A DNA stretch of 64,000 bases, taken from positions 44,256 to 108,255 of the forward strand of contig UWYS01000031.1 in assembly GCA_900291925.1 (NCBI GenBank). Reading direction: 5' to 3'. The position numbers were made by a program, and so were the translations under genes. The notes below the pieces were generated by a model. The model did not search any database. It was not told where the DNA came from and saw only the letters and a list, made by a program, of their open reading frames with translations. Positions 509 to 64,000 of the stretch are shown here, one piece after another. The DNA is from Thecaphora thlaspeos. Its lineage: Eukaryota > Basidiomycota > Ustilaginomycetes > Urocystidales > Glomosporiaceae. Numbering within the stretch: position 1 is the stretch's first letter; the number at the start of each line of letters is the position of its first letter.

Positions 509-794
509 ATTTAGAATAATAAAAATATCTACATATTTAGTAAATAAATAATAACAATGCTTTAGAAAACAGATATAAAACACGTAAAAGATATAATAAG
601 ATTAATCCAATATTCTAAATAATGAGAGAAGAAGAAAAAAATGGTCTAAAAGATTACCGGCATTTTTATTTTTAAAATAGGTGCCTTCCTGAAAAAGAAA
701 GATTTCTTTTTTTATTTTCTACTTTTTTATTTTCTACTTTTTTTACGTTTATTTTCTGATTGAAAAGTACAATAAAAATAGTTTTTTAAAGCGT

Positions 795-829
795 GATTTT
801 TAACTATTCGAATAATAAACAGATAAATA
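795..829. repeat. dispersed 35-bp direct repeat, copy 1
   Basis: Matches 4026-4060 in the same orientation with one mismatch (C/T). Non-coding at both places. Confidence 0.85.
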
Positions 830-3150: not shown

Positions 3151-3312
3151 AGCTATGGAATGGTGTAGGTGAATCTAGTGACGCTGTGTGAGATTCCGGA
3201 AGAATGCGGTTTACCATTTACAAGGATATCGTAGATGATGTAACCAAATAGAACAGTAGCGAAATCACACATCCGTGCATCAGGGTAATCTGGAATACGT
3301 CGAGGCATGAAT
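3151..3312 (-). pseudogene. cox1: decayed second copy of the cox1 3' end
   Basis: The minus strand repeats blocks of cox1 exon 8 (5870-6160) in the same order: the encoded ends PTPFHS, FLVNGK-type, YIIYD/VLFGY and [10 protein letters not shown] are recognisable. Several segments are missing; for example the 15 bases corresponding to about 5917-5931 are cleanly absent. No frame is open, so this is not a working gene. It lies about 2.5 kb downstream of the true cox1 stop in the same orientation, and group I intron sequence sits on its upstream side (3331-3500). It was therefore copied as DNA, not as spliced RNA. Compare the displaced 3' ends of cox3 and nad5. Confidence 0.85.
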
Positions 3313-3330
3313 TTATTCGGTCCTTAACTT

Positions 3331-3500
3331 CTTATTATCACTAATAAGTTTAGACTATGTTATCTTTTATATCCAATAGAATATAAAAGCGGATTATTGT
3401 TAGTGCAACTCACCGATTAGTCGTTGAACTTTCTTAAACCAAATACATTTAGTATACACCTATTTAAGTTTAGCTGCAAGTTGTCTTTTATCTATGACAT
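3331..3500 (-). pseudogene. group I intron 3' core fragment attached to the cox1 tail copy
   Basis: The minus-strand equivalents of the conserved core elements, including the GTTCAACGACTA element and the ACATAGTCT-like element, occur in the same order as at 12100-12330, the 3' part of cox1 intron 2. Both copies also share the TAGCTGCAA-like element further upstream. This is a non-functional remnant. Confidence 0.65.
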
Positions 3501-4439
3501 AAAAAAGAGATCCTAGCAATTCACCGGTTTGGGTTCATAACGGACATCAAAAAATGTTCCAACGGAATATAGTATACATAAATAAGGCAGACTATTTGGA
3601 CAGTAAAAAGAATGGGTTTAAATAGATCGGTATATCTTTCATTGAATAGAGTTAGATATTTCTTAGGGCTCGATAAATTTTAGACAGAAATAAATACGTA
3701 CAACAAATAGTACACTAGTAAAAGCAAGATAAAATTGTAGTGTCTTATAGCAATTAAAAAGACCATTGTAAACATTATTACCGTTCTAAAAATTGCGATA
3801 AAAAATGTGTATTTTATTTTTAGAATCTTCTTAAACAACATAGAATAGTGTAATAGGTAGAATAATAAAACAAAATACCCATTGAGACGGTCGCATCATA
3901 AATTATTGCCATATCCCCAAAAAATAAAAAAAAAAATAAATTAGACAAACAATTAGTAGAAAATGAGCGATTTCATAGAATACACAAATATATCAATACG
4001 ACGTAATCAATCTTTTTTTTAACCCGATTTTTAACTATTTGAATAATAAACAGATAAATAAAGATACAAACCCGCAAAATTTATTATTTGTAGAAATTGT
4101 TCGCAATCCGGCATATGTGAATAGTATTCTGCAGAAATAGAATCTGTAAAAAAGATCGTCAATCATTGATTCAATAAATGAGAAAAAAGATTTCTCGGAT
4201 TATTAATATTGAACTTATCGGGATTAATTTCCATATGCGATTTAGCTACCTTATCAAATCGCGGTGGATTTTTTGATACTTTATCAAGAATACCGCTTTA
4301 ACACGGGGCATAGACGCAATAGCTTGTGCGGACGTGAAATCTTTGTTATAGAACGTTAGTATTTTTAACACTATTCCTATGGTAGTTAGTCCTACTGCTA
4401 TAGCTTGTTGCTTTTTTTAAAAGAGCCCTTTACCTTATT
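3501..4439. other. decayed zone
   Basis: No intact gene. It carries the second copy of the 35-bp repeat (4026-4060). At 4190-4440 the minus strand shows short open stretches that may continue the neighbouring nad2 remnant or a lost endonuclease, but I cannot name them. Confidence 0.45.
4026..4060. repeat. dispersed 35-bp direct repeat, copy 2
   Basis: Partner of 795-829, one mismatch. Confidence 0.85.
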
Positions 4440-4780
4440 CGTCTGGACTATGAATAGTAAAATCTTTATAAACAGTTGGATTTGATACAGGTTCAACACT
4501 CCTAGATTTTTACATGCTTCATTTCCTGTTACTTGTACTAGATTATAGATCTTTTCAAATTGTGTTAGTCCTGTGTAACTATAGATTAGGGCTGTACCTA
4601 GTAGAATAAGAGCCCGTAGAATTAGAGCACCGATACAGTTGTAACATGGAATAGTCGATACGGAAGCTAGTGCTTCAACATGTAGACCGTTAAAAGCGAG
4701 TAGAGCGGAGTAAATTAGAACTACAGATGTAATCCGATTAAATAGACTTGGAGAAAAGAGGAATTTGTACTAGTTGTGAT
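4440..4780 (-). pseudogene. nad2: NADH dehydrogenase subunit 2 fragment
   Basis: The minus strand reads segments resembling two separate parts of fungal NAD2. One is the N-terminal helix region (SVVLIYSALLAFNGLHVEAL). The other is the mid-protein stretch ILLGTALIYSYTGLTQFEKI. Known NAD2 proteins have the same order but with more than 100 residues between these parts. Here they are separated by about 20 scrambled residues, so the copy carries a large internal deletion, and no start or C-terminal part is visible. The intact nad2 must lie outside the window. Assignment rests on recalled family pattern and was not aligned. Confidence 0.6.
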
Positions 4781-4953
4781 ATTAGACCAATTGAAAGCGG
4801 CTATTTAACCTCTATTTTTAAATCCGATTTATTTTAGAACGCGTTCATTTTCATTTTTTCTAAAAAACGAGGAATAAAAGTACCGGATATTTTTATGCCC
4901 CGCTACTTACTATATTTAGAATAGTTTTATAAATGGCGTTTATTTTCTAGATT

Positions 4954-5025
4954 TAAGCGTATTCGGAATCGAACCGAAAATATGAGAGTGGAAGTCCCAA
5001 GTTTTACCAATTAAACTATACGAGT
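4954..5025 (-). tRNA. trnG: tRNA-Gly(UCC)
   Basis: A cloverleaf of 72 nt on the minus strand. The anticodon stem TGGGA/TCTCA encloses loop CTTCCAC, anticodon UCC. The T arm is TTCGG-TTCGATT-CCGAA and the D stem is GTTT/AAAC. The acceptor ACTCGTA/TACGCTT has mismatches C:T and T:C at positions 2 and 3 while positions 1 and 4-7 pair. Mismatches confined to the first three pairs are the hallmark of tRNAs that undergo 5' editing in some chytrids, so this tRNA may need editing to function. Confidence 0.88.
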
Positions 5026-5842
5026 TATTATTCCTATAGAATAATTTAACATTAATATTATTCTAAAAAATATTGGTAACCTTATATAAGTTATATATAT
5101 TAAAAAAGCGAAAATAAAAATAGAAATAATACAATCAAAAAAAGAAATCTTTTTTATATAATACCATAAAAAATAGTACTAAAGAATAGTCTAATAAAAA
5201 GTAGCAGTAAAAAGTAATAAAGATAATGGTTAGCAGAGTGATTCGAAGAGGCCGCAATTAAAGCGTATCTTTTAGAATAGTAAAAATAAAAACGGGTTTT
5301 GTAGTGTACATATACTTATTCTATATTTAAGCCTTAAACTGAACTTTTTCTAAAAAGTTATATGTTTTTCGGATAGGGAAAAACATAGAGCTAAAAAAAA
5401 TATCCATGAAATTATTCTTGTTGTACTATTTTTTGGATTTTATTGGGATTATTAAATGCCTAATTTTTATTGGGGCCTAGCAGAATGGCCCAAAACTATG
5501 TTGAGTCATTAAAAAAGACTATTCTAAAAATTCTGAAAAGAATACAAAAGATCTTTCAATTTTAAGGGCACAAAAATGCATAGGACAGGATTACTGTATA
5601 CGTTTTTATTCTGCGCACAAGTAAAATAACCCGTTACAAGAATAAAGGTTATAACTGCTTACCCATATGCACCTATTATTATATATATATAATATATATA
5701 CGATAAAGACGTTAAGATCTGCATAATACGTAAAAAGAATAATAAGTAAAAAGAATAATAAGTAAAAGAATAATAAGTTAAAAAGAATAATAAGTTAAAA
5801 ATAGTTACAAGAAAAAGGGGGTAATTGCATAATTCTTTAAAA
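5026..5842. other. spacer between tRNA-Gly and the cox1 3' end
   Basis: No gene is seen. Contains an AT palindrome (about 5676-5702) and a short tandem array (5733-5803) just downstream of the cox1 stop. Confidence 0.55.
5733..5803. repeat. tandem array, about 17-bp unit
   Basis: Four imperfect units of the type GAATAATAAGT(T)AAAA follow each other directly. It lies 40 bp downstream of the cox1 stop. Confidence 0.8.
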
Positions 5843-14592
<8,750 letters not shown>

Positions 14593-18643: not shown

Positions 18644-19489
18644 ATGAACACACGAAACACAAACGTACAAACACTATCACGAACACAATTTCAATTCCAG
18701 CCATTCCATCTAGTTACACCTAGTCCATGGCCACTACTAACATCATTTGCACTACTAATTCTTACATCTTCAGCAGTAATGTACTTTAACGGTTACGCTA
18801 ACCCTCTAGGAGGTTCAGGTCTACTACTAGTAGGAATCGGTCTAACTACTACAGCTGGTGCTATGGCCCTATGGTTCCGAGACGTAGTTGCGGAAGGAAC
18901 ATTTCTAGGAGACCATACATTCCTAGTACAAAAAGGAATTACAATGGGAGTTGCACTATTCATTATTAGTGAGGTATTCTTCTTTATTAGTATTTTCTGG
19001 AGTTATTTCCATTCTAGTCTTTCTCCAACTGTTGAACTAGGTGCTCAATGGCCACCAGTGGGTATTGACACTATCAATGCCTTTGAACTACCACTACTTA
19101 ATACTGTGCTTCTGCTATCATCAGGTGCTACAATTACATATTCGCACCATGCACTAATTCAAGGTAACCGACGAGGTGCTCTAGTTGGTGGACTGCTAAC
19201 ACTAGTATTTGCAACTCTATTTACTATCTGTCAAGGTATTGAGTACTACAATGCACCATTTACAATTTCTGATGGTGTATATGGAAGTACATTCTTCTTT
19301 AGTACTGGAACACATGGTATTCACGTAATTCTAGGAACAATTTTTCTAGCAGTAGGTATCTACCGAATGCTTAACTACCATCTAACAGATCACCACCATC
19401 TAGGATTTGAAGGAGCTATTCTATATTGGCACTTTGTTGATGTAGTATGGCTATTCCTATTCGTAACAGTTTACTGGTGCAAATCATAA
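18644..19489 (+). CDS. cox3: cytochrome c oxidase subunit 3, left arm
   Basis: A 281-residue, seven-helix COX3, intronless. Landmarks: FQPFHLVTPSPWPL at residues 17-30 (conserved N-terminal HPFHLV-type motif), WFRDVV (about 77-82), EVFFFISIFWSYFHSSL (about 109-125), GIEYYNAPFTISDGVYGS and FFFSTGTHGIHVILGT, and a C-terminal WHFVDVVWLFLFVTVYW. Length is slightly above the common 265-270 because of a short N-terminal extension. COX3 is the third core subunit of complex IV. Its protein is identical in the right-arm copy (56978-57823). It is followed directly by three decayed GIY-YIG genes, each trailed by a fragment of the cox3 3' end. Confidence 0.97.
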   Translation: MNTRNTNVQTLSRTQFQFQPFHLVTPSPWPLLTSFALLILTSSAVMYFNGYANPLGGSGLLLVGIGLTTTAGAMALWFRDVVAEGTFLGDHTFLVQKGITMGVALFIISEVFFFISIFWSYFHSSLSPTVELGAQWPPVGIDTINAFELPLLNTVLLLSSGATITYSHHALIQGNRRGALVGGLLTLVFATLFTICQGIEYYNAPFTISDGVYGSTFFFSTGTHGIHVILGTIFLAVGIYRMLNYHLTDHHHLGFEGAILYWHFVDVVWLFLFVTVYWCKS

Positions 19490-19530
19490 TTTAACCCCCT
19501 TTATTTCTATTTATTTATCTAATAACTGCA

Positions 19531-20522
19531 ATGAACACTATTATTATTAACCTTATTCAATAACTACAAAATGATTCTAATCTACTTGTACCTATCACAG
19601 AACTAAGTAGTCATGCTGTAATTGCTAAGCAAACACTAATTAAAATAATTTAATCTGGACCTATTTTTTTAGAAATGATTATGTAAAATATAATACAGAA
19701 GTATTTGCTTATCTAAATACAGATAGTATGCTAGTACAATCAAATCTCTACTAAATCCGATGTAACAACGGATTCATCTGTTTATGTTGGTATTCAAGAT
19801 ATAGAAAATTATTCTATTGGATCAGCATCGAATACACTAAGTCGTATTAGTCAACGCGGGAATCGTCCAATAGAAGCAGTACATCGTAAACTGCTAAATG
19901 CATAGAATGCTTAGTAGCTTACTTGGAGTAAAATTTACAAAGTACCAAATTATTATGTGTAACGAATCTACCTTATTATGAGATTAGTCAAGGATAAATA
20001 AGAATTCGAGTTTGTACTCTGTATTCTAGAACAATCTCTAATTACAGAACGTATATAATGCTGTAAATAAACCAGTGCTATTTACTTATGGTACAGTAAC
20101 CAACTAAATGTGTATGATTATGCTAAAGATGGAAGGTGAATATTCTAAATGCGTAATTAGAGAAAAAGTAATCTAAATTTAGATTACAAATTAGTAGAAA
20201 TATGGCAAATCGTTATCTAAATTCAATAACTGGCTTTTATAGTACAGTATTTAATTGTAAAGTGGTTTTGCACTATACAATAAAGAGATTATTCACCGCT
20301 CTAAACCCTAACGGTAAATCCCTAACGCACCGGAGAAGATTTCCTTTCATAAATTTAAGTGAAGCTGCTAGAGAGCTACTCTCTAGTAATTTTACAAATA
20401 AAGAGATAAGTAGAACGCAAATACGATATAATAATCTGGATAAGCTACATCAATACGAAATTGGTAAATTCTATGTTGCTTCAAATCCGGTTCTAATCCT
20501 ACTTCATCTAAAAGTCCGGTAA
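19531..20522 (+). pseudogene. decayed GIY-YIG endonuclease a, downstream of cox3
   Basis: Starts MNTIIINLIQ 42 nt after the cox3 stop. Near 19782-19860 it reads VYVGIQDIENYSIGSASNT, with YSIGSA as the second half of the GIY-YIG motif followed by an arginine-bearing helix. An open stretch at 20202-20522 (106 codons) holds the C-terminal part, including NLSEAARELLSSNFTNKEIS (a DNA-binding NUMOD-like helix region) and IGKFYVASNP. Stops and shifts occur in between, so it is inactive. Mirror: 55945-56936. Confidence 0.75.
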
Positions 20523-20576
20523 GATTCTACCCCATTCAATAATTAATTAATAAATACAAACATCCTTTTTATAAAT

Positions 20577-20690
20577 GGTAGGAATTCACGTAATCATCGG
20601 GATTCTTCTCCCACCGATTTTAAGGAGCTATTCTATACTGGCACTTTGTTGATGGCTATTTGTAACAGGTGCAAATCAGAATTTAACCCC
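20577..20690 (+). pseudogene. cox3: cox3 3'-end copy 1
   Basis: Resembles cox3 19318-19495: GIHVI, then GAILYWHFVD, then the last codons and the AATTTAACCCCC trailer. Internal blocks are deleted and the stop is altered (TCAGAA for TCATAA). Mirror: 55777-55890. Confidence 0.88.
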
Positions 20691-20709
20691 CTTTTATTTA
20701 TTTATTACA

Positions 20710-21585
20710 ATGAACACAATTCTAACACTACTACAGCAAATGCAAAATGATACGGTACCTATTACAGATCTTAGTCCAAATGCGCTAAAAATGTACTAGT
20801 CTCGATAGTAGAATCACTACCCGAGAAAAATGGGGTAGTACACAAAATATTACTTATCATCTACGAGGACTAGGTGAAAATAGTCTCGTATATATGCTTC
20901 ATCTACCATATGATATAACTAATAACTATATTGGATCAGCCAGTAATGCCGTATTGGACAACATCGTCCACAAGATGCAGTTCATATGAAACAACTTTAA
21001 ATAGGTGATATAAAATAAATCGTATTCATCAATTAACTATTATAAACTAGGCCTCATTATCAATTTAGTCAAGTTTTTATCGCATTTACATAATTTATTC
21101 TTCGTATTCTAGAACAAAAGTATTATTACAGAGTTTAATCCATCTCTTAATAGTTGTAATACTTTACTATTTACATATACGATCCTAAACTACTTAGTGT
21201 TTATAATTTTAGAAATGATGGTCCGAAGTACTTCGTGCATTTGTGCCTAGTATTGAACAAGCTTCACAACTCCTAAATATCGTTATCTACAAAGTCGATT
21301 TTATAGTACTGTATTTAATTGTAAAATTACTCTTGGACTAATTGGTACTCTCCTTGTAAAAAAAGGGAATTGAACATCGAAAAAATGGTTCACTATATGA
21401 TCGGTATTTCTAGAAGATAAAATGAATTACTTTTGAATAATTCCTTAATTACACTTAAGCAAGTAAATTTCTTAATCCAATTAAACATGAAGAGCGTGGA
21501 AGTAGTAATTATAGCAAACCTATTAAACGAAATAGCGAAAATATAGTTAACACGGAAAAGTATATATTGCATGTAATCCGGTAAT
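20710..21585 (+). pseudogene. decayed GIY-YIG endonuclease b
   Basis: Begins MNTILTLLQQMQNDTVPITDLS, closely like copy a (LQNDSNLLVPITELS). YIGSASNA is near 20931-20955, and TRKSIYC/SGNP-like C-terminal remains are near 21560. Many frame breaks. Mirror: 54882-55757. Confidence 0.72.
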
Positions 21586-21614
21586 CCAAATTCTCTCCCT
21601 CTACCTAAATAAAC

Positions 21615-21685
21615 ATGGAATCGATTTTAAGGAGCTATTCTATATTGGCACTTTGTTGATGGTGCAAATCATAATTTAACCCCCT
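21615..21685 (+). pseudogene. cox3: cox3 3'-end copy 2
   Basis: Reads GAILYWHFVD, jumps straight to the final GCAAATCATAA and keeps the AATTTAACCCCC trailer. The segment between (VVWLFLFVTVYW) is lost. Mirror: 54782-54852. Confidence 0.88.
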
Positions 21686-21703
21686 TTTTATCTTAAAACC
21701 GTA

Positions 21704-22664
21704 ATGAACACTATTATTATTAACTTTATTCAATAACTATAAAATAATTCTAATCTACTTGTACCTATCAACAGAGCTTTATGATCAAGCACTAATTATT
21801 TTAAAAAATACACGAGTCTATACCCTATATTTTAGATCAGAAACTATATTACATATCGGTACAAATAATGAAAATATGCTAGTTCCGCCATCTTATTTAA
21901 GAACCTCTTCAAAGACTAGGTGAAAATAGTCATGCTATATTATAAAGTTGACGTTATTATATTGGATCAGCAAGTAATGCACTAAACCGTCAACATCTCG
22001 ATTTCGACTACGACTTCAAGACGTCTAAAACTACTATCATCTGGTTATTCTCGTTATTCTAAAGTTTATACCTCAATTAATTATTATAAACTAGCTATTG
22101 AAACGACTTATCATTTTAGTCGCGTGTTTATCGCATTTACAGAATTTGTAATTCGTATTCTAGAGCAAAGTCTTATTATTGATTTTAGTCAATATCTTAA
22201 TAGTAAAACCCTAGTACTACTCACTTAGACGATCCTGTTCTACTTCAAGTGTATAAGTTTGCGGTAGTCGACCTGTTGAGATTAGTAATGCGTAATTTCT
22301 GTATTTTGTACGCCTACTAAAAATTATTCTAAATATAGTAAATCGTTATCTACAAAGTTCACATGGGTGCTGATGTAAAGTTACTCTGGGACTTGTTGGA
22401 GCTAGTCTTTACAAAAACCACCGTAAATCATAATCTAGTACTGCGCTGCGCTGGCGCCTACTTTATGTCTATGTTATTTTTCCGTCTCTTTACTTTTCTA
22501 CCACGGATAAAACTAAATAGTTCGGTCCATTCCGTCATTATACAGAGCGTTTTCTTAACCCTAATAAACATGCTAATAATCCGTAATATATCTAAACCAA
22601 TCAAACGTAATTGTAATCTAGAAAACCTTGTAAATACAGATAAAAAATTATATTGCATGTAATC
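21704..22664 (+). pseudogene. decayed GIY-YIG endonuclease c
   Basis: Starts MNTIIINFIQ, followed in broken frames by LLVPIN-type sequence and YYIGSASNALNR (about 21953-21990). A 99-codon frame at 22363-22662 is a shifted C-terminal part interrupted by a GC-rich cluster (22441-22458). Inactive. Mirror: 53803-54763. Confidence 0.72.
22441..22458. repeat. GC-rich palindromic cluster inside endonuclease c
   Basis: CTGCGCTGCGCTGGCGCC preceded by TAGTA. With its flank it is the reverse complement of the clusters at 48141-48165 and 49880-49904, apart from a shorter middle. It sits inside the endonuclease remnant, as if inserted. Confidence 0.75.
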
Positions 22665-22759
22665 CTAATTTACAGCATTTGCAAGTAATCCCCCCATTTA
22701 ATCTGTAAGGGTTATTATTTGAACTCTTTTCCCTATCCGATTTTTCCTAATGCTTTTGT

Positions 22760-22853
22760 ACCGGACCATCATCATCTAGGATTCGATAAAGCGATTGGGT
22801 TGAGGTAGTATGACTATTCCTATTTGTAACAGTTTACTGGTGCAAATCATAAT
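22760..22853 (+). pseudogene. cox3: cox3 3'-end copy 3
   Basis: Starts with DHHHLGF-coding sequence and ends with VTVYWCKS plus TAA; the middle is shortened. The trailer AATTTAACCCCC is not kept, unlike the other copies. Mirror: 53614-53707. Confidence 0.88.
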
Positions 22854-23738: not shown

Positions 23739-24527
23739 TAGAATTTACCCGTTAAAAAATCACCGCTTATTTTCCCTATCCGCGCGAAGCGGGAAAGCGC
23801 GGGCCACTTTTTTTTACTCTGCATATTTTACAGAGGGCCTAATTCAATATAATATTTGATAAGCAGCGCAGCGAATAAAAATATGTAATTTAAAGATAGA
23901 TTTTTCTAATTATATTTCTATAAAATAAGGATTAATTCTAATTCTTTAGAGAGCTTATCCGCGCTGACCGACTTAAGTTGGGTTTTTCATAGAAAAACAA
24001 AACCAAAAATGAACAAGATAAAATTGGTTTTTAGAAAATATTTTTCCCCAAATATTTTATTAGGGACTATTTTTAAGGGGGCGTTTTACTTATTAAAATA
24101 AATGAAAAAGTACAGTATATAGAATATACTAGAAGAAATTAGTATACTAAATAAAAATGGCATTAATAATCGAAAAAATAGCGCTAAAATATCTGTAACG
24201 AAATTATCTTTATAACTAAAATAAAGAGAAATATCTAGGTCTTCTTTTCAATTTTTTAGCTACAGATTAAAGTGTTTTTACTTTTCTATTTCCTATTTAT
24301 CTAACACTAATTACTGTATTAACTTTCGCTTTTAAATTGTACTAATTTAAAAACGAAGAAAAAGCTAGATAGTTTAAACTAACAATCATAAGTTAAATAA
24401 GCGGTATAAATTGTTTAGAATAGGTAGACTATTCTAGTTTTTAGAATAGTAATAGAGTTATACCATAATACAGTAAGTATTGATGTGCTATAATAATCAA
24501 AAAATAATTTCTTTATTTTAAAATATC
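23739..24527. other. cob upstream region
   Basis: Holds a GC cluster (about 23772-23805) and the cob leader. The inverted repeat ends at 24524, three bases before the cob ATG. Mirror: 51944-52728. Confidence 0.6.
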
Positions 24528-50880: not shown

Positions 50881-51945
50881 CCAGTCCGCTACTATTAATT
50901 TGCTAACAAAGCTTTAAATGAAGTAAATATATTATTATTAGCAACATACAGTAGTGGAAATAGTGCTATAGTAATAATAAGTAGAAGATGATCGGTATGC
51001 GCTTGGCAAAGGGAATAGAAGACTGAACCAAATGCAACAATAGAAAGAAGAATAGACAATAAGAAAATTTACGTATTTAACTGCGTCCACTCATATACTC
51101 TCCAAATAGTGTTACCGCATAAATCACCATATAATAAGCACAAATCTGCACGACTTGTAGTTGAATACTTATCTTAAGATAAGAGGGGTATTTTGTGTTG
51201 TAGTTGTTTCAATGAAGAAATAGACAGATTGCAGAACTGTCTGAAAGATAGAGCAAATTATATTGATAAAGTAAGCAATAAATTCTGTTGGAATTACAGA
51301 CGATGTTTATCGGTGTATTTCGAGCGTCCATGATTATACGAACCAAAGTTCTTGATGGTTGCGATACCGTTGCGTACTTTCCAGAATTAAACTAGTGGGC
51401 CCCCGTGAATGATCCTTGTAGATCTACTAGTTCAAAATGGGCTGTTACCGTGCTGAAGGTAGATCCATATGATGGTAAGCTATATAAGCTGTTCCATACA
51501 TACTTGCAAAAATTGTGTTAGCTCGAACTAGACCTCTAAATAGGGGCTCCGGAATTACTAGAGAAAATACATTATCAAGTTGACCGTATTGTTTTGTGTC
51601 TATTCTCCTAGTCCTAGATTGGATGGTTCAGGTGTAGGTGTATTATTTGGGCCCGGATATTCAAAGTAGTTAGCTATAAAGCTAATGTTATACAGACACA
51701 ATAAAAAGTATAAACGTATACAGAAAATAACTTTACAAAAGTAAGCAAGCTTAACTGTGAAAAGATAAAGCTTAAATGCAGTAAGCTGTTTCGGTTCATT
51801 GTAATTAAATAGCAGTGTATTAATATAGTATAGAAGAACACATACTACAAACACTTGATAAAAGACGGTAAAATTAGTTGGGTATTTTCTGGATATACTA
51901 GATAAACTGATACTACGATACAAAAGATAAAATAAATAAAACCAT
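50881..51945 (-). pseudogene. unidentified, frame-broken membrane-protein gene
   Basis: The minus strand from the inverted-repeat edge reads an ATG (51943-51945) followed by VLFILSFVS and a stop. Open stretches in other frames follow. One is 107 codons (51600-51923) ending in PGPNNTPTPEPSNLGLGE. Others are QLDNVFSLVIPEPLF, VRANTIFASMYGTAYIAYH, YYMVIYAVTLFGEYMSGRS and, near 50910-51080, a run with hydrophobic helices (LLSILLSIVAFGSVF, LLLIITIALFPLLYV). CTA-rich coding in places resembles the respiratory genes. Together it looks like one gene of about 300 codons broken by several shifts. I do not recognise the family. Its leader is the inverted-repeat copy of the cob leader. Confidence 0.4.
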
Positions 51946-52728
51946 TTTAAAATAAAGAAATTATTTTTTGATTATTATAGCACATCAATACTTACTGTAT
52001 TATGGTATAACTCTATTACTATTCTAAAAACTAGAATAGTCTACCTATTCTAAACAATTTATACCGCTTATTTAACTTATGATTGTTAGTTTAAACTATC
52101 TAGCTTTTTCTTCGTTTTTAAATTAGTACAATTTAAAAGCGAAAGTTAATACAGTAATTAGTGTTAGATAAATAGGAAATAGAAAAGTAAAAACACTTTA
52201 ATCTGTAGCTAAAAAATTGAAAAGAAGACCTAGATATTTCTCTTTATTTTAGTTATAAAGATAATTTCGTTACAGATATTTTAGCGCTATTTTTTCGATT
52301 ATTAATGCCATTTTTATTTAGTATACTAATTTCTTCTAGTATATTCTATATACTGTACTTTTTCATTTATTTAATAAGTAAAACGCCCCCTTAAAAATAG
52401 TCCCTAATAAAATATTTGGGGAAAAATATTTTCTAAAAACCAATTTTATCTTGTTCATTTTTGGTTTTGTTTTTCTATGAAAAACCCAACTTAAGTCGGT
52501 CAGCGCGGATAAGCTCTCTAAAGAATTAGAATTAATCCTTATTTTATAGAAATATAATTAGAAAAATCTATCTTTAAATTACATATTTTTATTCGCTGCG
52601 CTGCTTATCAAATATTATATTGAATTAGGCCCTCTGTAAAATATGCAGAGTAAAAAAAAGTGGCCCGCGCTTTCCCGCTTCGCGCGGATAGGGAAAATAA
52701 GCGGTGATTTTTTAACGGGTAAATTCTA

Positions 52729-52800
52729 TTTGTCCTAGAGGAATCGAACCTCTATAATGTCTTTATCGGAAACACATTCTAACCGTTGAATTAAGGACAA
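52729..52800 (-). tRNA. trnI: tRNA-Ile(GAU), right arm
   Basis: Inverted-repeat copy of 23667-23738; cloverleaf intact. Confidence 0.93.
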
Positions 52801-53613
52801 TTGTATATACTTATATAAATAACCTAAAATTTGCTTATCAAATCGAAGATTTGATAAGGCGAGTCCCATCTTAAATCCTTATTTTTAGTTTAACATCTAC
52901 ATTTTTATTTTTAGAAAATATTTAAAGAGCACTTTAAATTCACTATTTTTTAGTTACAAGATTATATTGTATATTTTTGTGGAATGTTTAAACCTCTTAT
53001 AAAATAAAAAATTTCATTCTAAGATTTTTGATGTCCAATAATCAAAGATGCGCGACTTTCTAACAGATCAATAAATAAGATAAGCGCGCGATACATTGGA
53101 CTCTAAATAAGTATTTTTCGGGGCCAAAGAATATTACACAGTGAACAAGCTGAAGTGATTTCATGCAACCATAACTTTACTATATACAGAACGATTTATC
53201 TAAAACAGCGGGTAAAATAGCTTAACAATCGTTTTGTATTAGTAAATTATAGTACTTTATTCACTATATACCAGCATTAATTTTAACATATTCTAAACGA
53301 GCATTACAACTAGCCCCTATTAGAGCTGGATAGTTATCGTAAGGTATATATTATGAATGACCAGTTTTATAGTCTAATCTTTTTTAAACCATTACGTTAT
53401 TTCCTTTTAGTTTTTTGTCGTAATGTACAAATTCATCCTGTATAATTTAGAGGATTTATTTAGTAAAAATATTAGTTAACTTTTTAGTATCATTACAAAT
53501 ATTCTCATTATTCGTTTTTTTTCTTATATATTACTAATTAGTCTATTTGATAAAAACGGTAAAATAATTGATATGTTAATATTGTAAAGATTTAGTAGAC
53601 TGCATTCAAGGAC

Positions 53614-53707
53614 ATTATGATTTGCACCAGTAAACTGTTACAAATAGGAATAGTCATACTACCTCAACCCAATCGCTTTATCGAATCCTAGATGATGATG
53701 GTCCGGT
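53614..53707 (-). pseudogene. cox3: cox3 3'-end copy 3, right arm
   Basis: Mirror of 22760-22853. Confidence 0.87.
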
Positions 53708-53802
53708 ACAAAAGCATTAGGAAAAATCGGATAGGGAAAAGAGTTCAAATAATAACCCTTACAGATTAAATGGGGGGATTACTTGCAAATGCTGTAAATT
53801 AG

Positions 53803-54763
53803 GATTACATGCAATATAATTTTTTATCTGTATTTACAAGGTTTTCTAGATTACAATTACGTTTGATTGGTTTAGATATATTACGGATTATTAGCATGTT
53901 TATTAGGGTTAAGAAAACGCTCTGTATAATGACGGAATGGACCGAACTATTTAGTTTTATCCGTGGTAGAAAAGTAAAGAGACGGAAAAATAACATAGAC
54001 ATAAAGTAGGCGCCAGCGCAGCGCAGTACTAGATTATGATTTACGGTGGTTTTTGTAAAGACTAGCTCCAACAAGTCCCAGAGTAACTTTACATCAGCAC
54101 CCATGTGAACTTTGTAGATAACGATTTACTATATTTAGAATAATTTTTAGTAGGCGTACAAAATACAGAAATTACGCATTACTAATCTCAACAGGTCGAC
54201 TACCGCAAACTTATACACTTGAAGTAGAACAGGATCGTCTAAGTGAGTAGTACTAGGGTTTTACTATTAAGATATTGACTAAAATCAATAATAAGACTTT
54301 GCTCTAGAATACGAATTACAAATTCTGTAAATGCGATAAACACGCGACTAAAATGATAAGTCGTTTCAATAGCTAGTTTATAATAATTAATTGAGGTATA
54401 AACTTTAGAATAACGAGAATAACCAGATGATAGTAGTTTTAGACGTCTTGAAGTCGTAGTCGAAATCGAGATGTTGACGGTTTAGTGCATTACTTGCTGA
54501 TCCAATATAATAACGTCAACTTTATAATATAGCATGACTATTTTCACCTAGTCTTTGAAGAGGTTCTTAAATAAGATGGCGGAACTAGCATATTTTCATT
54601 ATTTGTACCGATATGTAATATAGTTTCTGATCTAAAATATAGGGTATAGACTCGTGTATTTTTTAAAATAATTAGTGCTTGATCATAAAGCTCTGTTGAT
54701 AGGTACAAGTAGATTAGAATTATTTTATAGTTATTGAATAAAGTTAATAATAATAGTGTTCAT
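53803..54763 (-). pseudogene. decayed GIY-YIG endonuclease c, right arm
   Basis: Mirror of 21704-22664; its 99-codon open stretch (53805-54104) encodes the same peptide as the left copy. Confidence 0.72.
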
Positions 54764-54781
54764 TACGGTTTTAAGATAAAA

Positions 54782-54852
54782 AGGGGGTTAAATTATGATT
54801 TGCACCATCAACAAAGTGCCAATATAGAATAGCTCCTTAAAATCGATTCCAT
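54782..54852 (-). pseudogene. cox3: cox3 3'-end copy 2, right arm
   Basis: Mirror of 21615-21685. Confidence 0.87.
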
Positions 54853-54881
54853 GTTTATTTAGGTAGAGGGAGAGAATTTGG

Positions 54882-55757
54882 ATTACCGGATTACATGCAA
54901 TATATACTTTTCCGTGTTAACTATATTTTCGCTATTTCGTTTAATAGGTTTGCTATAATTACTACTTCCACGCTCTTCATGTTTAATTGGATTAAGAAAT
55001 TTACTTGCTTAAGTGTAATTAAGGAATTATTCAAAAGTAATTCATTTTATCTTCTAGAAATACCGATCATATAGTGAACCATTTTTTCGATGTTCAATTC
55101 CCTTTTTTTACAAGGAGAGTACCAATTAGTCCAAGAGTAATTTTACAATTAAATACAGTACTATAAAATCGACTTTGTAGATAACGATATTTAGGAGTTG
55201 TGAAGCTTGTTCAATACTAGGCACAAATGCACGAAGTACTTCGGACCATCATTTCTAAAATTATAAACACTAAGTAGTTTAGGATCGTATATGTAAATAG
55301 TAAAGTATTACAACTATTAAGAGATGGATTAAACTCTGTAATAATACTTTTGTTCTAGAATACGAAGAATAAATTATGTAAATGCGATAAAAACTTGACT
55401 AAATTGATAATGAGGCCTAGTTTATAATAGTTAATTGATGAATACGATTTATTTTATATCACCTATTTAAAGTTGTTTCATATGAACTGCATCTTGTGGA
55501 CGATGTTGTCCAATACGGCATTACTGGCTGATCCAATATAGTTATTAGTTATATCATATGGTAGATGAAGCATATATACGAGACTATTTTCACCTAGTCC
55601 TCGTAGATGATAAGTAATATTTTGTGTACTACCCCATTTTTCTCGGGTAGTGATTCTACTATCGAGACTAGTACATTTTTAGCGCATTTGGACTAAGATC
55701 TGTAATAGGTACCGTATCATTTTGCATTTGCTGTAGTAGTGTTAGAATTGTGTTCAT
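54882..55757 (-). pseudogene. decayed GIY-YIG endonuclease b, right arm
   Basis: Mirror of 20710-21585. Confidence 0.72.
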
Positions 55758-55776
55758 TGTAATAAATAAATAAAAG

Positions 55777-55890
55777 GGGGTTAAATTCTGATTTGCACCT
55801 GTTACAAATAGCCATCAACAAAGTGCCAGTATAGAATAGCTCCTTAAAATCGGTGGGAGAAGAATCCCGATGATTACGTGAATTCCTACC
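55777..55890 (-). pseudogene. cox3: cox3 3'-end copy 1, right arm
   Basis: Mirror of 20577-20690. Confidence 0.87.
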
Positions 55891-55944
55891 ATTTATAAAA
55901 AGGATGTTTGTATTTATTAATTAATTATTGAATGGGGTAGAATC

Positions 55945-56936
55945 TTACCGGACTTTTAGATGAAGTAGGATTAGAACCGGATTTGAAGCAACATAGAATT
56001 TACCAATTTCGTATTGATGTAGCTTATCCAGATTATTATATCGTATTTGCGTTCTACTTATCTCTTTATTTGTAAAATTACTAGAGAGTAGCTCTCTAGC
56101 AGCTTCACTTAAATTTATGAAAGGAAATCTTCTCCGGTGCGTTAGGGATTTACCGTTAGGGTTTAGAGCGGTGAATAATCTCTTTATTGTATAGTGCAAA
56201 ACCACTTTACAATTAAATACTGTACTATAAAAGCCAGTTATTGAATTTAGATAACGATTTGCCATATTTCTACTAATTTGTAATCTAAATTTAGATTACT
56301 TTTTCTCTAATTACGCATTTAGAATATTCACCTTCCATCTTTAGCATAATCATACACATTTAGTTGGTTACTGTACCATAAGTAAATAGCACTGGTTTAT
56401 TTACAGCATTATATACGTTCTGTAATTAGAGATTGTTCTAGAATACAGAGTACAAACTCGAATTCTTATTTATCCTTGACTAATCTCATAATAAGGTAGA
56501 TTCGTTACACATAATAATTTGGTACTTTGTAAATTTTACTCCAAGTAAGCTACTAAGCATTCTATGCATTTAGCAGTTTACGATGTACTGCTTCTATTGG
56601 ACGATTCCCGCGTTGACTAATACGACTTAGTGTATTCGATGCTGATCCAATAGAATAATTTTCTATATCTTGAATACCAACATAAACAGATGAATCCGTT
56701 GTTACATCGGATTTAGTAGAGATTTGATTGTACTAGCATACTATCTGTATTTAGATAAGCAAATACTTCTGTATTATATTTTACATAATCATTTCTAAAA
56801 AAATAGGTCCAGATTAAATTATTTTAATTAGTGTTTGCTTAGCAATTACAGCATGACTACTTAGTTCTGTGATAGGTACAAGTAGATTAGAATCATTTTG
56901 TAGTTATTGAATAAGGTTAATAATAATAGTGTTCAT
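55945..56936 (-). pseudogene. decayed GIY-YIG endonuclease a, right arm
   Basis: Mirror of 19531-20522; the 106-codon C-terminal stretch (55945-56265) is the same in both arms. Confidence 0.75.
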
Positions 56937-56977
56937 TGCAGTTATTAGATAAATAAATAGAAATAAAGGGGGTTAAA

Positions 56978-57823
56978 TTATGATTTGCACCAGTAAACTG
57001 TTACGAATAGGAATAGCCATACTACATCAACAAAGTGCCAATATAGAATAGCTCCTTCAAATCCTAGATGGTGGTGATCTGTTAGATGGTAGTTAAGCAT
57101 TCGGTAGATACCTACTGCTAGAAAAATTGTTCCTAGAATTACGTGAATACCATGTGTTCCAGTACTAAAGAAGAATGTACTTCCATATACACCATCAGAA
57201 ATTGTAAATGGTGCATTGTAGTACTCAATACCTTGACAGATAGTAAATAGAGTTGCAAATACTAGTGTTAGCAGTCCACCAACTAGAGCACCTCGTCGGT
57301 TACCTTGAATTAGTGCATGGTGCGAATATGTAATTGTAGCACCTGATGATAGCAGAAGCACAGTATTAAGTAGTGGTAGTTCAAAGGCATTGATAGTGTC
57401 AATACCCACTGGTGGCCATTGAGCACCTAGTTCAACAGTTGGAGAAAGACTAGAATGGAAATAACTCCAGAAAATACTAATAAAGAAGAATACCTCACTA
57501 ATAATGAATAGTGCAACTCCCATTGTAATTCCTTTTTGTACTAGGAATGTATGGTCTCCTAGAAATGTTCCTTCCGCAACTACGTCTCGGAACCATAGGG
57601 CCATAGCACCAGCTGTAGTAGTTAGACCGATTCCTACTAGTAGTAGACCTGAACCTCCTAGAGGGTTAGCGTAACCGTTAAAGTACATTACTGCTGAAGA
57701 TGTAAGAATTAGTAGTGCAAATGATGTTAGTAGTGGCCATGGACTAGGTGTAACTAGATGGAATGGCTGGAATTGAAATTGTGTTCGTGATAGTGTTTGT
57801 ACGTTTGTGTTTCGTGTGTTCAT
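56978..57823 (-). CDS. cox3: cytochrome c oxidase subunit 3, right arm
   Basis: Second complete cox3, 281 residues, identical in protein to 18644-19489. Identity over a full gene while intron regions of the same arms have drifted shows that this part of the repeat is still being homogenised or under strong selection. Either or both copies could be expressed. Confidence 0.97.
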   Translation of the reverse strand: MNTRNTNVQTLSRTQFQFQPFHLVTPSPWPLLTSFALLILTSSAVMYFNGYANPLGGSGLLLVGIGLTTTAGAMALWFRDVVAEGTFLGDHTFLVQKGITMGVALFIISEVFFFISIFWSYFHSSLSPTVELGAQWPPVGIDTINAFELPLLNTVLLLSSGATITYSHHALIQGNRRGALVGGLLTLVFATLFTICQGIEYYNAPFTISDGVYGSTFFFSTGTHGIHVILGTIFLAVGIYRMLNYHLTDHHHLGFEGAILYWHFVDVVWLFLFVTVYWCKS

Positions 57824-58717
57824 TGATAAATAAAAATGTAAATGGATCGTATATTTATAGATCGTACGGGTACTTAGATAAATTGTTTTATCTAATACTG
57901 GATATATATTATATCAGTAGCCTAATCTTAATCAGACATCAATTAGTTAGTTTCTTGTTGTACTTTATCTATTTTAGATTTACAATATAGTTATTTAGAA
58001 AAGCCTTAAAAAATATCCATTTTTAATAAGAACGATAAAAGAATGCATTCAATTACGGTCGTTATAAAATTTCGATATTTTTATAAAAAAAGACGCAATA
58101 AATTTACTATTATTATACCTATTTAGATTAGATAGTATGTTTTGTTTTAAACATTTAGTACACAAGTTATACTATAAACAAACCATATGATAAGATGGTT
58201 ATAAATTGATTGCTTTAAAAAAGGTAAGAAAATACACTAGTATATAATGTGTATTACGCCTACCTACACCTATATACATAAAATTATATTCTAAAAATAA
58301 AGTATAGTAGTATACAGTTACTGAATCTTAGTAAAATGTTCCTTAATTTAATCTACGATGCATTTTTCCAAAGGAAAAAAAAAACAAATAAGCGCAGTGA
58401 ATAAACAGAATAGTGCAGTATTCAAAAAAAAAATTGAATTGAAACTACCAAATAATAAATAGATGAATATAGAATATACTTTAACAAAAGATTAAAAAGT
58501 AATTTTTGTAAAAAGTTTATTTACTAAAATAAACTTATTAAAAAAAAATAAATAAGTAGAAGATTATTAATAATATAGGTAAGGGTGCTTTAAAGTGCTA
58601 ATTTCTCGCCCTAATAAATTAGCGTTATTTTTTCCTTATTAAAGAAAGAATTTTCTATATTATTTTACGTCCTAATTTTTTAGAGTCGGAAAACTTAGGT
58701 ACTACCCAAATAATACC

Positions 58718-58804
58718 GGACGTGTGGCAGAGTTGGTTTAATGTACCTGGCTTGAGTCTAGGCGTCTCAATTTGAGACCGGGAGTTCGAATCTCCCCGCG
58801 TCCG
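58718..58804 (+). tRNA. trnS2: tRNA-Ser(UGA), right arm
   Basis: Copy of 17663-17749, intact. Confidence 0.93.
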
Positions 58805-59622
58805 AAACTATTTTAACAATAAAAAAGAAATATTTAAGAGAGTTATAGACTGTATTGTTGTGCTAAACCATTCTGAAAAGTTTAGAAAAAATTTAGAAGA
58901 CATCTTATTTTAATTAATACTATTTAGAAAATTTAGAATAGATTGAACAATCGATGCCGTAAACTTATTTGCACTATTAGCATAATTAAATTTATTTGAT
59001 TGTTAATAGATGGTATTTAATAAGATGCGTAATTACAAAAGTACTAATGGATTAGATAAGACATCTTGTAATCTATTGACTATAAAGAGATTTTACTTAT
59101 TTATTATTAAAAAAAGAAAAGTACAAATCGAAAACGAACGTGTATTAATAAAAGAATAAATTCTCGTCATATATTTATTCTTAATACTTGATGTATACTA
59201 TCTACGTATTAATATATGTACGTACTACTGTATTATTTTTATAATCCAACTAAATATTTCTTTAGTATTTTTATATTCTAAATAAATTTTGCCTATTATT
59301 CTCAAATCTTCGATTTGATTAGGGCTTGTATAACTCTGCCACTTAAAATAGGGTCCTGCAAGGCATTTATCTATTCATATAGGTACTGGAAACATGGGTA
59401 CACTAACTAGTATTAAACCGAATAACTAAACTAAAAAAAGGCCCCCAAAAATTCGCGCGGAGAAAATAGGGAAAATAGCAGATTTTATAAAAAGATACCA
59501 ATATTTTTATTGTAGTGTTTTTAACCTTTATTAATTACTAGTCTCTTTTTTAATTGTTTCTTCTATTTATAATATAAATAATTAAAAAGTTGTTAACTAA
59601 ACTATCTATTTTTTATTCTAAA

Positions 59623-59695
59623 AGTACTTTAGTGTAAAGGTAGCACAGCAGACTCATGTCCTGCTAGACCAGTGTTCGAATCCTGGAATGTACTC
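59623..59695 (+). tRNA. trnM: tRNA with CAU anticodon, right arm
   Basis: Copy of 16772-16844 with the same stem irregularities. Confidence 0.78.
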
Positions 59696-59819
59696 AAAAA
59701 TGAAAAACGGAATTAAAGCTATAATAATTAAAAAGTGGAAATAAAAAACATATTTTTGCCCTTCTGAAAAAATAGGATTCTAAAATTAGAACGAAAACCA
59801 GAAAGAATACAGAATATAT

Positions 59820-59890
59820 GGTCTCTTAGTTTAACGGTAAAACTGTAGATCTTCACTTTACTAATAGGAGTTCGATTCTCCTAGAGATCA
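59820..59890 (+). tRNA. trnE: tRNA-Glu(UUC), right arm
   Basis: Copy of 16577-16647, intact. Confidence 0.92.
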
Positions 59891-60181
59891 TGGGCTTATT
59901 AAACTAGCACAAATAAATCGCATTTTTGCGCCTTTTTAGAGAGAAAAACATATAGATGCGTCTCTATTCTATTATTTTCTGATAAATTAGAAGAGGTAAT
60001 AAAAATAGAACCAATTTTTTTTTTGTTTTCGTTTTTCCTTTGTTAATTTCGGTGGATAGGGGAAAAAGAGCGTAAAAAGTGGTTTTTCATAGAAAGGAAA
60101 GACTGTTCGACTCTATCCATATAGGTGGATTAGGAAAATTAAAGATAGGCCGTAAAAATAAAGAAAAATCTTTTAACTAAA

Positions 60182-60252
60182 GTCGACTTAGTTTAATGGT
60201 AGAATAGGTAACTTGTAATTACTTGGCACTAGTTCGATTCTAGTAGTCGGCA
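60182..60252 (+). tRNA. trnT: tRNA-Thr(UGU), right arm
   Basis: Copy of 16215-16285, intact. Confidence 0.92.
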
Positions 60253-60694
60253 AACAAAACTTTTTTTTAGTTTATAAAGTATCTACGTTAATTTTCTTAT
60301 CCTAAAGGAAAAAGGAGCCGTGAAATAAATAACTGCTATATAATAATAAAGTATAAGTATACTATTTATAAGCGAGTATAACTCTAGAACAATGTTGAAT
60401 GTAAAGATTTAAAAATGCTATTAAAAACCGTAGCAATTAAGTGAGTTACTGATTTCTAAAAAGTACTTTTTTAGAATTGAATTCTAAAATTGAACGGATT
60501 ATGTTTGTATTGAGCAAATAATCAGCAAAGTTATTTTTTTATAATTAGTATAACAATACTAGCAAAAATAGTAAAAATAGATTAGAAGCCGCGCTGCAAT
60601 GATCCCGCGCCGAATGCATTTTTCTTAAATTTTGGAAATAATTCGAAAAATGTATTAATATATGTATAGTAAGTGTATTTGTATAACAAATAAA

Positions 60695-60765
60695 TAGGAT
60701 GTCGTCTAATGGCAAGACGTCACTTTTTGGTAGTGATAATGATTGTTCGATTCAATCCATCCTAG
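60695..60765 (+). tRNA. trnQ: tRNA-Gln(UUG), right arm
   Basis: Copy of 15702-15772, intact. Confidence 0.93.
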
Positions 60766-61274
60766 ATTAAATAATGGTTAATTAAGATATAATTAAAAAG
60801 AATTATTTTTTATATTAAAAGCCGATTTTTTACATAGATAAGTCCTACTAATTGAAGATTGTAAAAGTGCAGATAAGAAAGAGAATATTGAATTTAATTA
60901 GGGGGCCCTTATGTTTTTGGTATCTTTATATTATCGCGCGCTCTGAAAAACGAGTTCAAACAAGTAAGAAACCTTTCTGTAAAAAGAGTATAGAATATTA
61001 TTAAAGTAATAATAGAGGTCTTTATAAAAACTGGACTATATTATCAGGAGAATTCTAAAAAATTTTTATACGCTATCTTATTTTTATTTTTTCCTATCGT
61101 CTATGTTCGCGCGGAGCGCTTATTCGGAAGAGCGCAGAACAATCGGATAAGGATAGGAAAAATAGCCTAAAATAAAAATGGCTTTAATACAATTTCTCAT
61201 TTATGCTGTTTAAGTTATAACAATAAACCACGAATTGTTCTATGTGAAATGTACTATCTATCTTGTCTTTATAG

Positions 61275-61346
61275 TAAGGACAGTAGGATTTGAACCTACA
61301 ACTTTGGTATTAAAAGTACCACACTCTACCATTGAGTTATATCCTC
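61275..61346 (-). tRNA. trnK: tRNA-Lys(UUU), right arm
   Basis: Copy of 15121-15192, intact. Confidence 0.93.
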
Positions 61347-61562
61347 TATAACCATATATACAGGGATCCTATATAATATATATAGAAATAAATAACTTAT
61401 AGTTAAAGCAAAAAACGTACTTAAATTGTTTTGGTTTGAAAAAGTATTTTTCGGCTTGTTCTGCGCCAGCGCAGCTTCGCCGAACACGCCGTCCCTTTTT
61501 TATAATAAGGTATTGAAAGTTTTTACTCGCGAGCCGAAAAACCTTTATTATATAGGTTACTA

Positions 61563-61651
61563 GGACAAACCGCTATTGGCGAAGTGTAGGCGATTGCTAA
61601 TTGTCTGGAAGATTAAACCATTCCTTAGGAGTTCGAATCTCCTTTTGTCCG
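61563..61651 (+). tRNA. trnS1: tRNA-Ser(GCU), right arm
   Basis: Copy of 14815-14903, intact. Confidence 0.93.
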
Positions 61652-61873
61652 TATATTAAATAGGATAGTCTATTTATAGAAAATATAGTTATTATAAAAA
61701 TCAAGATAGTTTTTTCTCCTTTTTATAAGTTTAATAAATGAAATATTTTTTACTAAGTAATAATCTTATTTATTTAAGTAAAGTATCCTATAAATAAGGT
61801 AGAATAATAAACTTTACACTAAGTCTTATGATAAAAGGAATACATTGAGGAGTTAATATCACAGTATCAAACT

Positions 61874-63258
61874 GTGGTTCGTTGGCTTTATTCAACAAAT
61901 GCGAAAGATATTGGTACACTTTATCTTATCTTTGCTGTATTTGCTGCAATGATCGGTACAGCATTTTCAATGCTAATCCGAATGGAGCTTACTGCACCTG
62001 GGGTACAGTTTCTAAATGGAGACCATCAACTATACAATGTAATCATTACAGCACATGCTTTCGTAATGATTTTCTTTATGGTTAGCGCCTCACTGTCTAA
62101 AAAAAAATCCGAAGATTCTAGAATAAAAGAATTATTAATGAAGATATAGAGAATTAAAGTCCTGACAAGTATATAAAAATTACTATTGATAATCCTTATA
62201 TTAATCGTAAACTTATTGCAAAATAAGCTAAAAATGCTATTGGTGTATATATCTTTAAAACTAAAGACGTTATGTAGAGAGTTCCGGTACGTACTAAAGT
62301 ATTTTTAAAAAGATGGTTTTCAAGATGTTACTCTTACACTACTTATTCTTGATAGAGAGTGTACTAGTGATATAGCTGTTGAACTAGAACGCCTAGATAT
62401 TCTTAAACCAAATCTTAATACTCTACGTTCGACTCTATTTTCAGGGCCGCGAAATAGCGTGAATACGAGGAGTTATAATTTATGTCTATGATACATATAC
62501 AATAAATCTAGTCTTTATTAGTGATAGTGTACAATTTTAGCGGATCATGTAGGTATTCATCGATCTTCTGTGCTACGTTATGCAAGTAATGGAAAACTAT
62601 ATCTAAATCGATTTATGTTTAGCTACAGAAATAGACAACTCATTTATAAATAACGCAAAAAAAAAATAAGGCTCTGATTTTATATGTGCTAATAAGATTG
62701 AATATGTTATAAATCTGGCAGATTTCAAGAACCTTATTTATCTAGTTTGTATGGGATATGATCCCTTTCGCAAAACCCGTATACAATAGCACTAATGCAT
62801 TTGCAAAAAGTGTAAAAGGAGATGTCGGAACAATTCGTAAATATCTTAATAATCCGATCTTTTTTATCGATTTTTCACAAACAAAAAGGCATAGCCGGGT
62901 TATAAAGTAATTTATAACTTTCTTCCCACTATATGCTGGAAACTCCTTAGAGACCTATAAACTAGATAGAATGAACAAATTAACAATCTGTTCCTCTTCT
63001 GAATCAGTAACATTGTATGGTATTGGACAATCAGCAGGAAACGAAAATAATTAATCTAGGTATATTCTTGTTTTTTATACGTTAATTATTTGTAGGATCC
63101 TCAGAGAATACACGTGAGATATCCTACTATCTTATAATTAGGTAGGGATAAAGATGTATTCCTGATCTATTGGAAAACAATAGATAATTGCCAGCATGCC
63201 AGCTATGGTTGGTGGTTTTGGTAACTACCTTGTACCAGTAATGATTGGAGCACCAGAT
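61874..63258 (+). CDS. cox1: cytochrome c oxidase subunit 1, right-arm copy, 5' part
   Basis: Exon 1 (61874-62083, 70 codons, GTG start) and exon 2 (63196-63258, 21 codons) repeat the left cox1 exactly at protein level. Intron 1 (62084-63195) carries the same broken GIY-YIG gene with small differences, and intron 2 begins at 63259 and runs past the window end. Whether a full second cox1 follows outside the window, or the repeat stops inside the gene and leaves a truncated copy, cannot be seen here. Confidence 0.88.
62084..63195 (+). other. cox1 group I intron 1, right-arm copy
   Basis: GIY-YIG fragments in order: [39 protein letters not shown]. Compared with the left copy (13267-14382) it is four bases shorter and carries substitutions and indels, for example around 62455-62475 and 62625-62640. 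Confidence 0.82.
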
Positions 63259-64000
63259 TATAAAAAATATAATGTACGTATTCGTCAACTAACTACTATT
63301 CTATCATCTAAAAAACAATTTGGTACATATCTTGCAGGGGATGGATCCCTAAGACTACGGTAAACGATATACACCGCTACTCTATTACATTTAGTGATAA
63401 AGATTATCCACTAGTTATTGCGCTACGGTACCATTCGATATAAATCAGAAAACGGGTGAGCAGGGCGAGCAGGTGCTAGTTATTACTGGTATTACAGGAC
63501 CGCTACAGAAATTAAATGAACTTGTTAAATGGGTTAATATAAAGTATCTAAAGATACTTTTGTTTATCATAATGTAGATACTAGTCCTATGTTTAGTAAT
63601 GCTTGGGGATGCTGCGGATCTTTGATGTAAAAGTACGTCATAAATCCGCGCAGTAAAGGTAAAGATCGTATTTAAGCTCGAGTACGGAAAAAAAGAACAA
63701 CGTAAAATTGACCCGGTCTATCTTATGCTTAAGTACTAGAATCTATTGCTAGTTGGTGTTAAACTAAATACTTCTATTCATAATGGTGATATAGAATACA
63801 ATATTGTAGCGTCCTGTTAAGCTTAAATCACTAAGTAAGTATCTAGATACATATCCGTAGTAAAAACTAAATTAGAATGATTTCGATGTTGCGTAAATAT
63901 GATGCTATCTCAGAAGCGCAAAATTGTGGTATAATAATAAACGAACATATTATAATTGGGCGGCATCTATCTAAACTATCCAATTACTAATTATGTTCGA
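63259..64000 (+). other. cox1 group I intron 2, right-arm copy, partial
   Basis: Starts with the in-frame LAGLIDADG remnant ([28 protein letters not shown] then stop) and runs to the window end. Differs from the left copy by several one- and two-base indels. Confidence 0.82.

Follow-up and report, generated by a model that had tools for sequence, protein, structure and literature searches.

How did a single gene come to be followed by three further copies of its own end? The question is raised by cox3 in the mitochondrial DNA (mtDNA) of Thecaphora thlaspeos, within a stretch of 64,000 nucleotides (the window; positions 44,256 to 108,255 of contig UWYS01000031.1, assembly GCA_900291925.1). Intact cox3 is followed by three units, each composed of a remnant of a GIY-YIG homing-endonuclease gene (HEG) and a partial cox3 3' end (tail), as the initial annotation had described. 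The HEG remnants number three, as do the displaced tails, and the HEGs have at least two origins. Free-standing GIY-YIG homing-endonuclease elements, each equipped with a replacement tail, probably invaded the cox3 3' end repeatedly and left this array behind.

Structure of the array

cox3 (18644..19489, + strand, as are all features of the array) is intact, encodes 281 amino acids ending in YWCKS, matches Pfam COX3 at 5e-116 and closes with a stop codon at 19487-19489. The HEGs are now all broken. HEG1 (19531..20543; read over 19519-20521, end 20543 read by eye) is a decayed GIY-YIG gene of subfamily A with 10 frameshifts and 8 stops. HEG2 (20710..21580) is of subfamily B, with 11 frameshifts, 3 stops and 3 TGA codons. 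HEG3 (21704..22692; read over 21955-22692, start set by DNA similarity to HEG1) is also of subfamily B, with 8 frameshifts, 2 stops and 1 TGA. MNT-type starts, already annotated, lie at 19531, 20710 and 21704, the first directly following the cox3 stop, as in the mobile genes of Allomyces and Glomus. In frameshift-tolerant alignment to a profile of relatives, units 1, 2 and 3 score 381, 303 and 290, against 22-26 for reverse complements. The sequence ATGAACAC occurs on the + strand solely at the cox3 start (18644) and at the three HEG starts, possibly as a shared start context or by chance.

TGA is probably not a tryptophan codon in this mtDNA: nine core-gene pieces contain 25 TGG and no TGA, and the tRNA-Trp detected has the anticodon CCA. 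It was therefore counted as a stop in the final lesion counts; the HEG readings used for trees decoded it as tryptophan in 4 codons. Lesions (frameshifts plus stops) number 18 in 328, 17 in 282 and 11 in 240 read codons of units 1, 2 and 3, or about 5.5, 6.0 and 4.6 per 100. Densities so alike give no readable age order and leave no unit clearly younger; the earlier proposal that the outermost unit is the youngest, based on its longest open frame, fails because unit 1 is not less decayed. HEG relatives P0124, P0126, P0128 and P0131 stop just before a column that is tryptophan in others, as if TGA encoded tryptophan in their hosts.

The displaced tails lie downstream of the HEGs, an arrangement typical of the Allomyces and Glomus cases. 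Tail 1 (20577..20680; similarity may start at 20560) has short deletions, tail 2 (21613..21674) the largest deletions, and the distal tail 3 (22710..22852) deletions that differ from those of tails 1 and 2. Best blastn pieces match the cox3 end at E 2.7e-18, 2.1e-13 and 2.3e-19, respectively, and the tail positions given before (20577, 21615, 22760) agree with these intervals. A trailer, AATTTAACCCCC, follows cox3 (19488..19499), tail 1 (20680..20691) and tail 2 (21673..21684), the last two as annotated. Elsewhere in the window it occurs only at the same three sites in a second reading of the locus, described below; 0.006 occurrences are expected by composition. Tail 3 lacks it, and its designation as native is not supported, since the distal tail is the one expected to be native.

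The present cox3 tail is taken to extend from the His-Gly codons, where tails 1 and 2 start to match, to the stop (19313..19489). This segment is likely to be the replaced part of cox3, its exact start being uncertain. Threonine before His-Gly, considered as a candidate mark of element-bearing alleles, is present in 3 of the 74 relatives readable by pattern (46 of 120 were unreadable). Among the cox3 protein matches listed, identity reaches 85% (P0001, P0003 and P0005 at 83-85%), and another match, at 77%, is labelled only as a bacterium; the nearest fungus-named matches listed are Tilletia controversa (79%), Parajaminaea phylloscopi (75%) and Jaminaea pallidilutea (71%). The mtDNA is taken to belong to the Ustilaginomycotina side of the basidiomycetes. 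The C-terminus is WGS in 72 of 116 relatives compared and YWCKS here; the motif YWC occurs in none of 120 relatives. The WCKS codons, GGTGCAAATCA, are common to cox3 and all three tails, and this ending may have spread by exchange among the repeats.

Endonuclease family and separate origins

The three HEGs belong, by sequence, to one small protein family. The predicted fold of an intact relative has the I-TevI catalytic domain as its best match, consistent with a GIY-YIG catalytic fold for the family; no Foldseek match was obtained at E 0.001 or better. Columns of Tyr, YIG, Arg, Glu and Asn are invariant across the family and presumably correspond to the catalytic positions. Family members scanned score under the curated Pfam cut-offs. 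With 17 family proteins as queries, no HEG relative was found elsewhere in the contig at E 1e-3. A damaged-looking member from Ustilago sp. UG-2017a (P0135), listed on a 780,583-base contig, is probably a nuclear copy of a mitochondrial HEG.

Trees were built with 15 of the 22 family proteins (P0126 and P0139 as one row). Short, damaged or distant sequences (P0134, P0135, P0136, P0138, P0140, P0141 and P0142) were excluded, and the hand-read tree was built without P0137 as well. Columns filled below 30% were dropped (13 of 433 in the profile-guided tree, 61 of 481 in the hand-read tree). HEG1 groups with P0123, P0125, P0127, P0129 and P0130 (subfamily A; support 94/96); HEG2 and HEG3 group with P0121, P0126 and P0128 (subfamily B; 99/99). 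Forcing HEG1-3 together costs 62 log-likelihood units and is rejected by the approximately unbiased test (p-AU 2.3e-5) with profile-guided readings and at p-AU 0.03 with cruder hand readings. In the hand-read tree HEG1 again falls in the first group (with P0132, 94/95), and HEG2 and HEG3 are nearest to the second group by path. Plain tblastn scores, among the matches listed, support the same split. Since HEG1 differs in subfamily from HEG2 and HEG3 and a joint clade is rejected, at least two separate invasions struck the same gene end. HEG2 and HEG3 are probable sisters (90/87, branch not starred; 61% amino-acid identity over 171 columns). The initial annotation had offered separate events or old duplications: the three HEGs indeed do not behave as evenly diverged duplicates of a single unit, and separate events are upheld for at least two invasions; the HEG2/HEG3 pair may reflect either a third invasion or an old duplication.

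Silent divergence

HEG2 and HEG3 seem to have diverged largely while working. Their DNA, compared over two stretches, differs at 22, 14 and 43 sites in codon positions 1, 2 and 3 (p 9e-5); the profile-guided comparison gave 44, 40 and 79. Between tail 3 and cox3, compared over 26 sense codons in two in-frame blocks, third positions account for 8 of the 10 differences (p 0.003), and 6 of the 9 changed codons are silent versus 22% expected (p 0.005). The 7-codon 5' block of tail 1 has 4 of 5 differences at third positions. One cox3 cannot end in both tails, so that such silent divergence would place tail 3 and the present tail in separate lineages for some time. The pattern in tail 3 suggests that it once terminated a functional cox3 of a different lineage. 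Of the hints at tail replacement this one is the best, although it draws on few sites in chosen blocks.

Explanations weighed

The proposed element would have three parts: a cox3 tail to replace the resident one, a short trailer and an endonuclease gene. The enzyme would have cut an element-less cox3, with a cutting site that may lie near the His-Gly codons at about 19313, and repair would have copied the element in. cox3 would have stayed functional with the new tail, the old tail being displaced downstream of the HEG and then decaying. After decay, tail ends, trailers and HEG starts would have exchanged sequence by recombination. Each unit would thus have arrived with its own tail, and the distal tail would be the oldest. 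A more ambitious form of this proposal can be held tentatively, at less than even confidence: the cox3 3' end would be a recurrent landing pad for at least two element lineages in succession, each bringing a tail from another fungus, the present C-terminus including YWCKS would be foreign, and the array would be a layered, recombining record.

Several observations weigh against repeated invasion with tail replacement. Raw identities of HEG1 to both subfamilies are close (53.1% to P0127, 51.6% to P0121), and the case for separate origins consequently rests on the trees; there the subfamily branch of HEG1 is not starred. With the hand readings, P0121 is the protein with the highest raw identity to HEG1 (44%), and HEG2 and HEG3 sit on long branches. 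The count of 79 pooled HEG2-HEG3 differences leaves out 104 positions at which the frames disagree (7 + 97) and 28 frameless positions (10 + 18); a third stretch of 23 bases, with one third-position difference, was not pooled. Silent-site counts in the tails are small and the blocks were picked by the analyst. Silent changes are not in excess in the 3' blocks of tail 1 (1 of 3 differences at third positions) and tail 2 (0 of 2), and the changed codons of tail 3 lie mainly in its 5' block (7 of 11, versus 2 of 16 in the 3' block; p 0.011). At the protein level no clear foreign signal is seen: over the 116 of 120 relatives having both parts, the cox3 tail is nearest to P0069 and P0078 (87%) and the body to P0001 (89%), and the body-tail gap ranks 14 of 117, which is not extreme. 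DNA of relatives was sought in viral contigs (HEG family, cox3) and genome contigs (HEG family) and none was found, so that this search yielded no element-free site and no donor of a tail. Tails 1 and 2 have a GAA to TAA nonsense change in common; HEG1 and HEG3 share an N-terminal stop, and their trailer-start region is 90% identical over 104 bases despite bodies of different subfamilies. The simplest explanation would be that dead units exchanged sequence, leaving tails and element starts mosaic. Later exchange must be added to the invasion model because nonsense changes are shared across units, and a mosaic of this kind, a point absent from the initial annotation, prevents the units from being read as clean layers.

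A narrower version of repeated invasion, with overlapping odds and appreciable probability although short of even, has two invasions and one duplication: a subfamily-B unit (tail, trailer, HEG) doubled by unequal recombination to give HEG2 and HEG3, and a subfamily-A element later entered nearest to cox3. The sister relation of HEG2 and HEG3, with their 61% identity, agrees with it, as do the nonsense change and similar start shared by the tails in front of these two genes (tails 1 and 2); but the mostly third-position differences (43 of 79) point to divergence under selection, hard to reconcile with a dead tandem copy, and tails 1 and 2, where they align, resemble each other much more closely than HEG2 and HEG3 do. 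Simple tandem tripling of a single element followed by decay would account for the order and trailer, alike in all units as counted here, and for the 90% identity between the starts of HEG1 and HEG3. It is very improbable, given that the HEGs do not form one clade and that divergence is quite unequal among segments of one unit.

HEG entry into the spacer past the cox3 stop, with copying of the resident cox3 end and no foreign tail at any time, is unlikely, though less so than tripling; a near alternative is argued in PMC4019555. The final 48 bases of tail 3 (46 of 48 identical to cox3), about 35 nearly identical bases in tails 1 and 2, and the presence of GGTGCAAATCA in all four ends are as such copying would leave them, but in the 5' parts of tails 1 and 3 most differences from cox3 are silent, which is unexpected for a recent unselected copy. 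Least probable of all is an assembly artefact. The contig ends do repeat, but the array is internal to the contig and identical over 3671 bases in both readings of the locus, cox3 is open and the units are of different subfamilies. Repeated invasion with replacement tails, including later exchange, is retained as the preferred explanation.

Contig structure and other partial copies

The contig (C31) measures 108,255 bases and is part of a 20.6-Mb assembly. It overlaps itself at 1-11277 and 85348-96627 (99.96%; the first 200 bases are not identical letter by letter), and its final 12 kb are the reverse of 56713-68779 (99.87%), joined via a perfect inverted repeat of 431 bp (window 24094-24524 and C31:10849-11279). 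The simplest reading of the contig ends is an 85.3-kb circle with the 431-bp inverted repeat and two flip isomers. Self-comparison places a second reading of the cox3 locus at 51944..64000 of the window (- strand); the two 12-kb readings have 16 differences, 15 of them within the final 2.7 kb of the contig. Because the contig wraps and re-reads itself through the inverted repeat, the mirrored array at 53.6-57.8 kb and the second cox3 of the window are most simply the same locus read again, with no extra copy. A DNA search of the 20.6-Mb assembly for nuclear or extra copies of the array returned two matches, both of them this locus. A diverged inverted duplication lies near tRNA-Gly (C31:25618-26467 and window 4506-5043; 73.6% over 458 bases, 95% over 108 bases).

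cox3 is not alone in this mtDNA: decayed partial copies of the 3' region also lie downstream of nad5 and cox1. A copy of the nad5 3' half lies at 44422-45062 of the window (+ strand), about 4.2 kb downstream of nad5, with 42-58% amino-acid identity in three pieces and with deletions. A short copy of the cox1 3' coding end lies at 3207-3308 (- strand), about 2.5 kb downstream of the cox1 stop, with 29 of 46 aligned residues identical and an internal deletion. No HEG was identified at either copy; in the interval from nad5 to its copy open reading frames were listed and no HEG search was made.

Comparison with known systems

Sporisorium scitamineum is a smut and shares its subphylum with the named cox3 relatives. 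In its mtDNA, atp9, cox1, nad1, nad5 and nad6 are each followed by an N-terminally truncated copy with GIY-YIG fragments between; the explanation offered is that a HEG enters the 3' end, displaces the C-terminus and supplies a substitute (PMC4466345). The cox3 locus is alike in its complete gene, GIY-YIG remnant and partial 3' copy, and the same explanation is proposed. It is unlike in having three units and two HEG subfamilies at one gene, whereas cox3 is absent from the S. scitamineum gene list, and neither a series at one gene nor a HEG phylogeny appears in the sections available (PMC4466345).

The precedent named in the initial annotation also holds: mobile open reading frames with a replacement C-terminus are described for atp6, atp9, cox2 and nad3 of Glomus sp. 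and for atp6 of Allomyces macrogynus (PMC3630166, in part). Likeness extends to the in-frame inserted C-terminus, the endonuclease gene and the native C-terminus downstream, the atp9 case being GIY-YIG. In those systems the native tail is seen in relatives and transcript tests were made, whereas here the HEGs are all broken and lie in three layers. Phlebia radiata has alternative 3' ends at atp6 and cox2; its cox2 has two regions resembling the last 66 bp of the gene, with three LAGLIDADG domains and one GIY-YIG domain between (PMC4019555). It is alike in its separated tails and differs in that atp6 and cox2 are other genes and that several HEG domains stand between two tails, not HEG and tail in alternation. 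The predicted fold likens the family to I-TevI; unlike enzymes of the I-TevI type, the window copies are free-standing and broken.

The array is less novel because partial 3' copies with GIY-YIG remnants are already described in smut mtDNA (PMC4466345, in part). A three-deep series at cox3 was not seen in the literature listings and passages compared (PMC3630166, PMC10849329, PMC7593156, PMC5096740, PMC4466345, PMC13028006, PMC4019555 and PMC5626475), and no account there of gene-end replacement by homing elements includes repeated layers at a single gene. A three-deep stack from at least two element lineages would show one gene end overwritten again and again, and its layers would allow tests of mitochondrial coding-sequence transfer between fungi, once the mtDNA of relatives is compared. 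The kind of event is already known from the systems above; what the cox3 locus adds is depth, with three layers at one gene and at least two element lineages.

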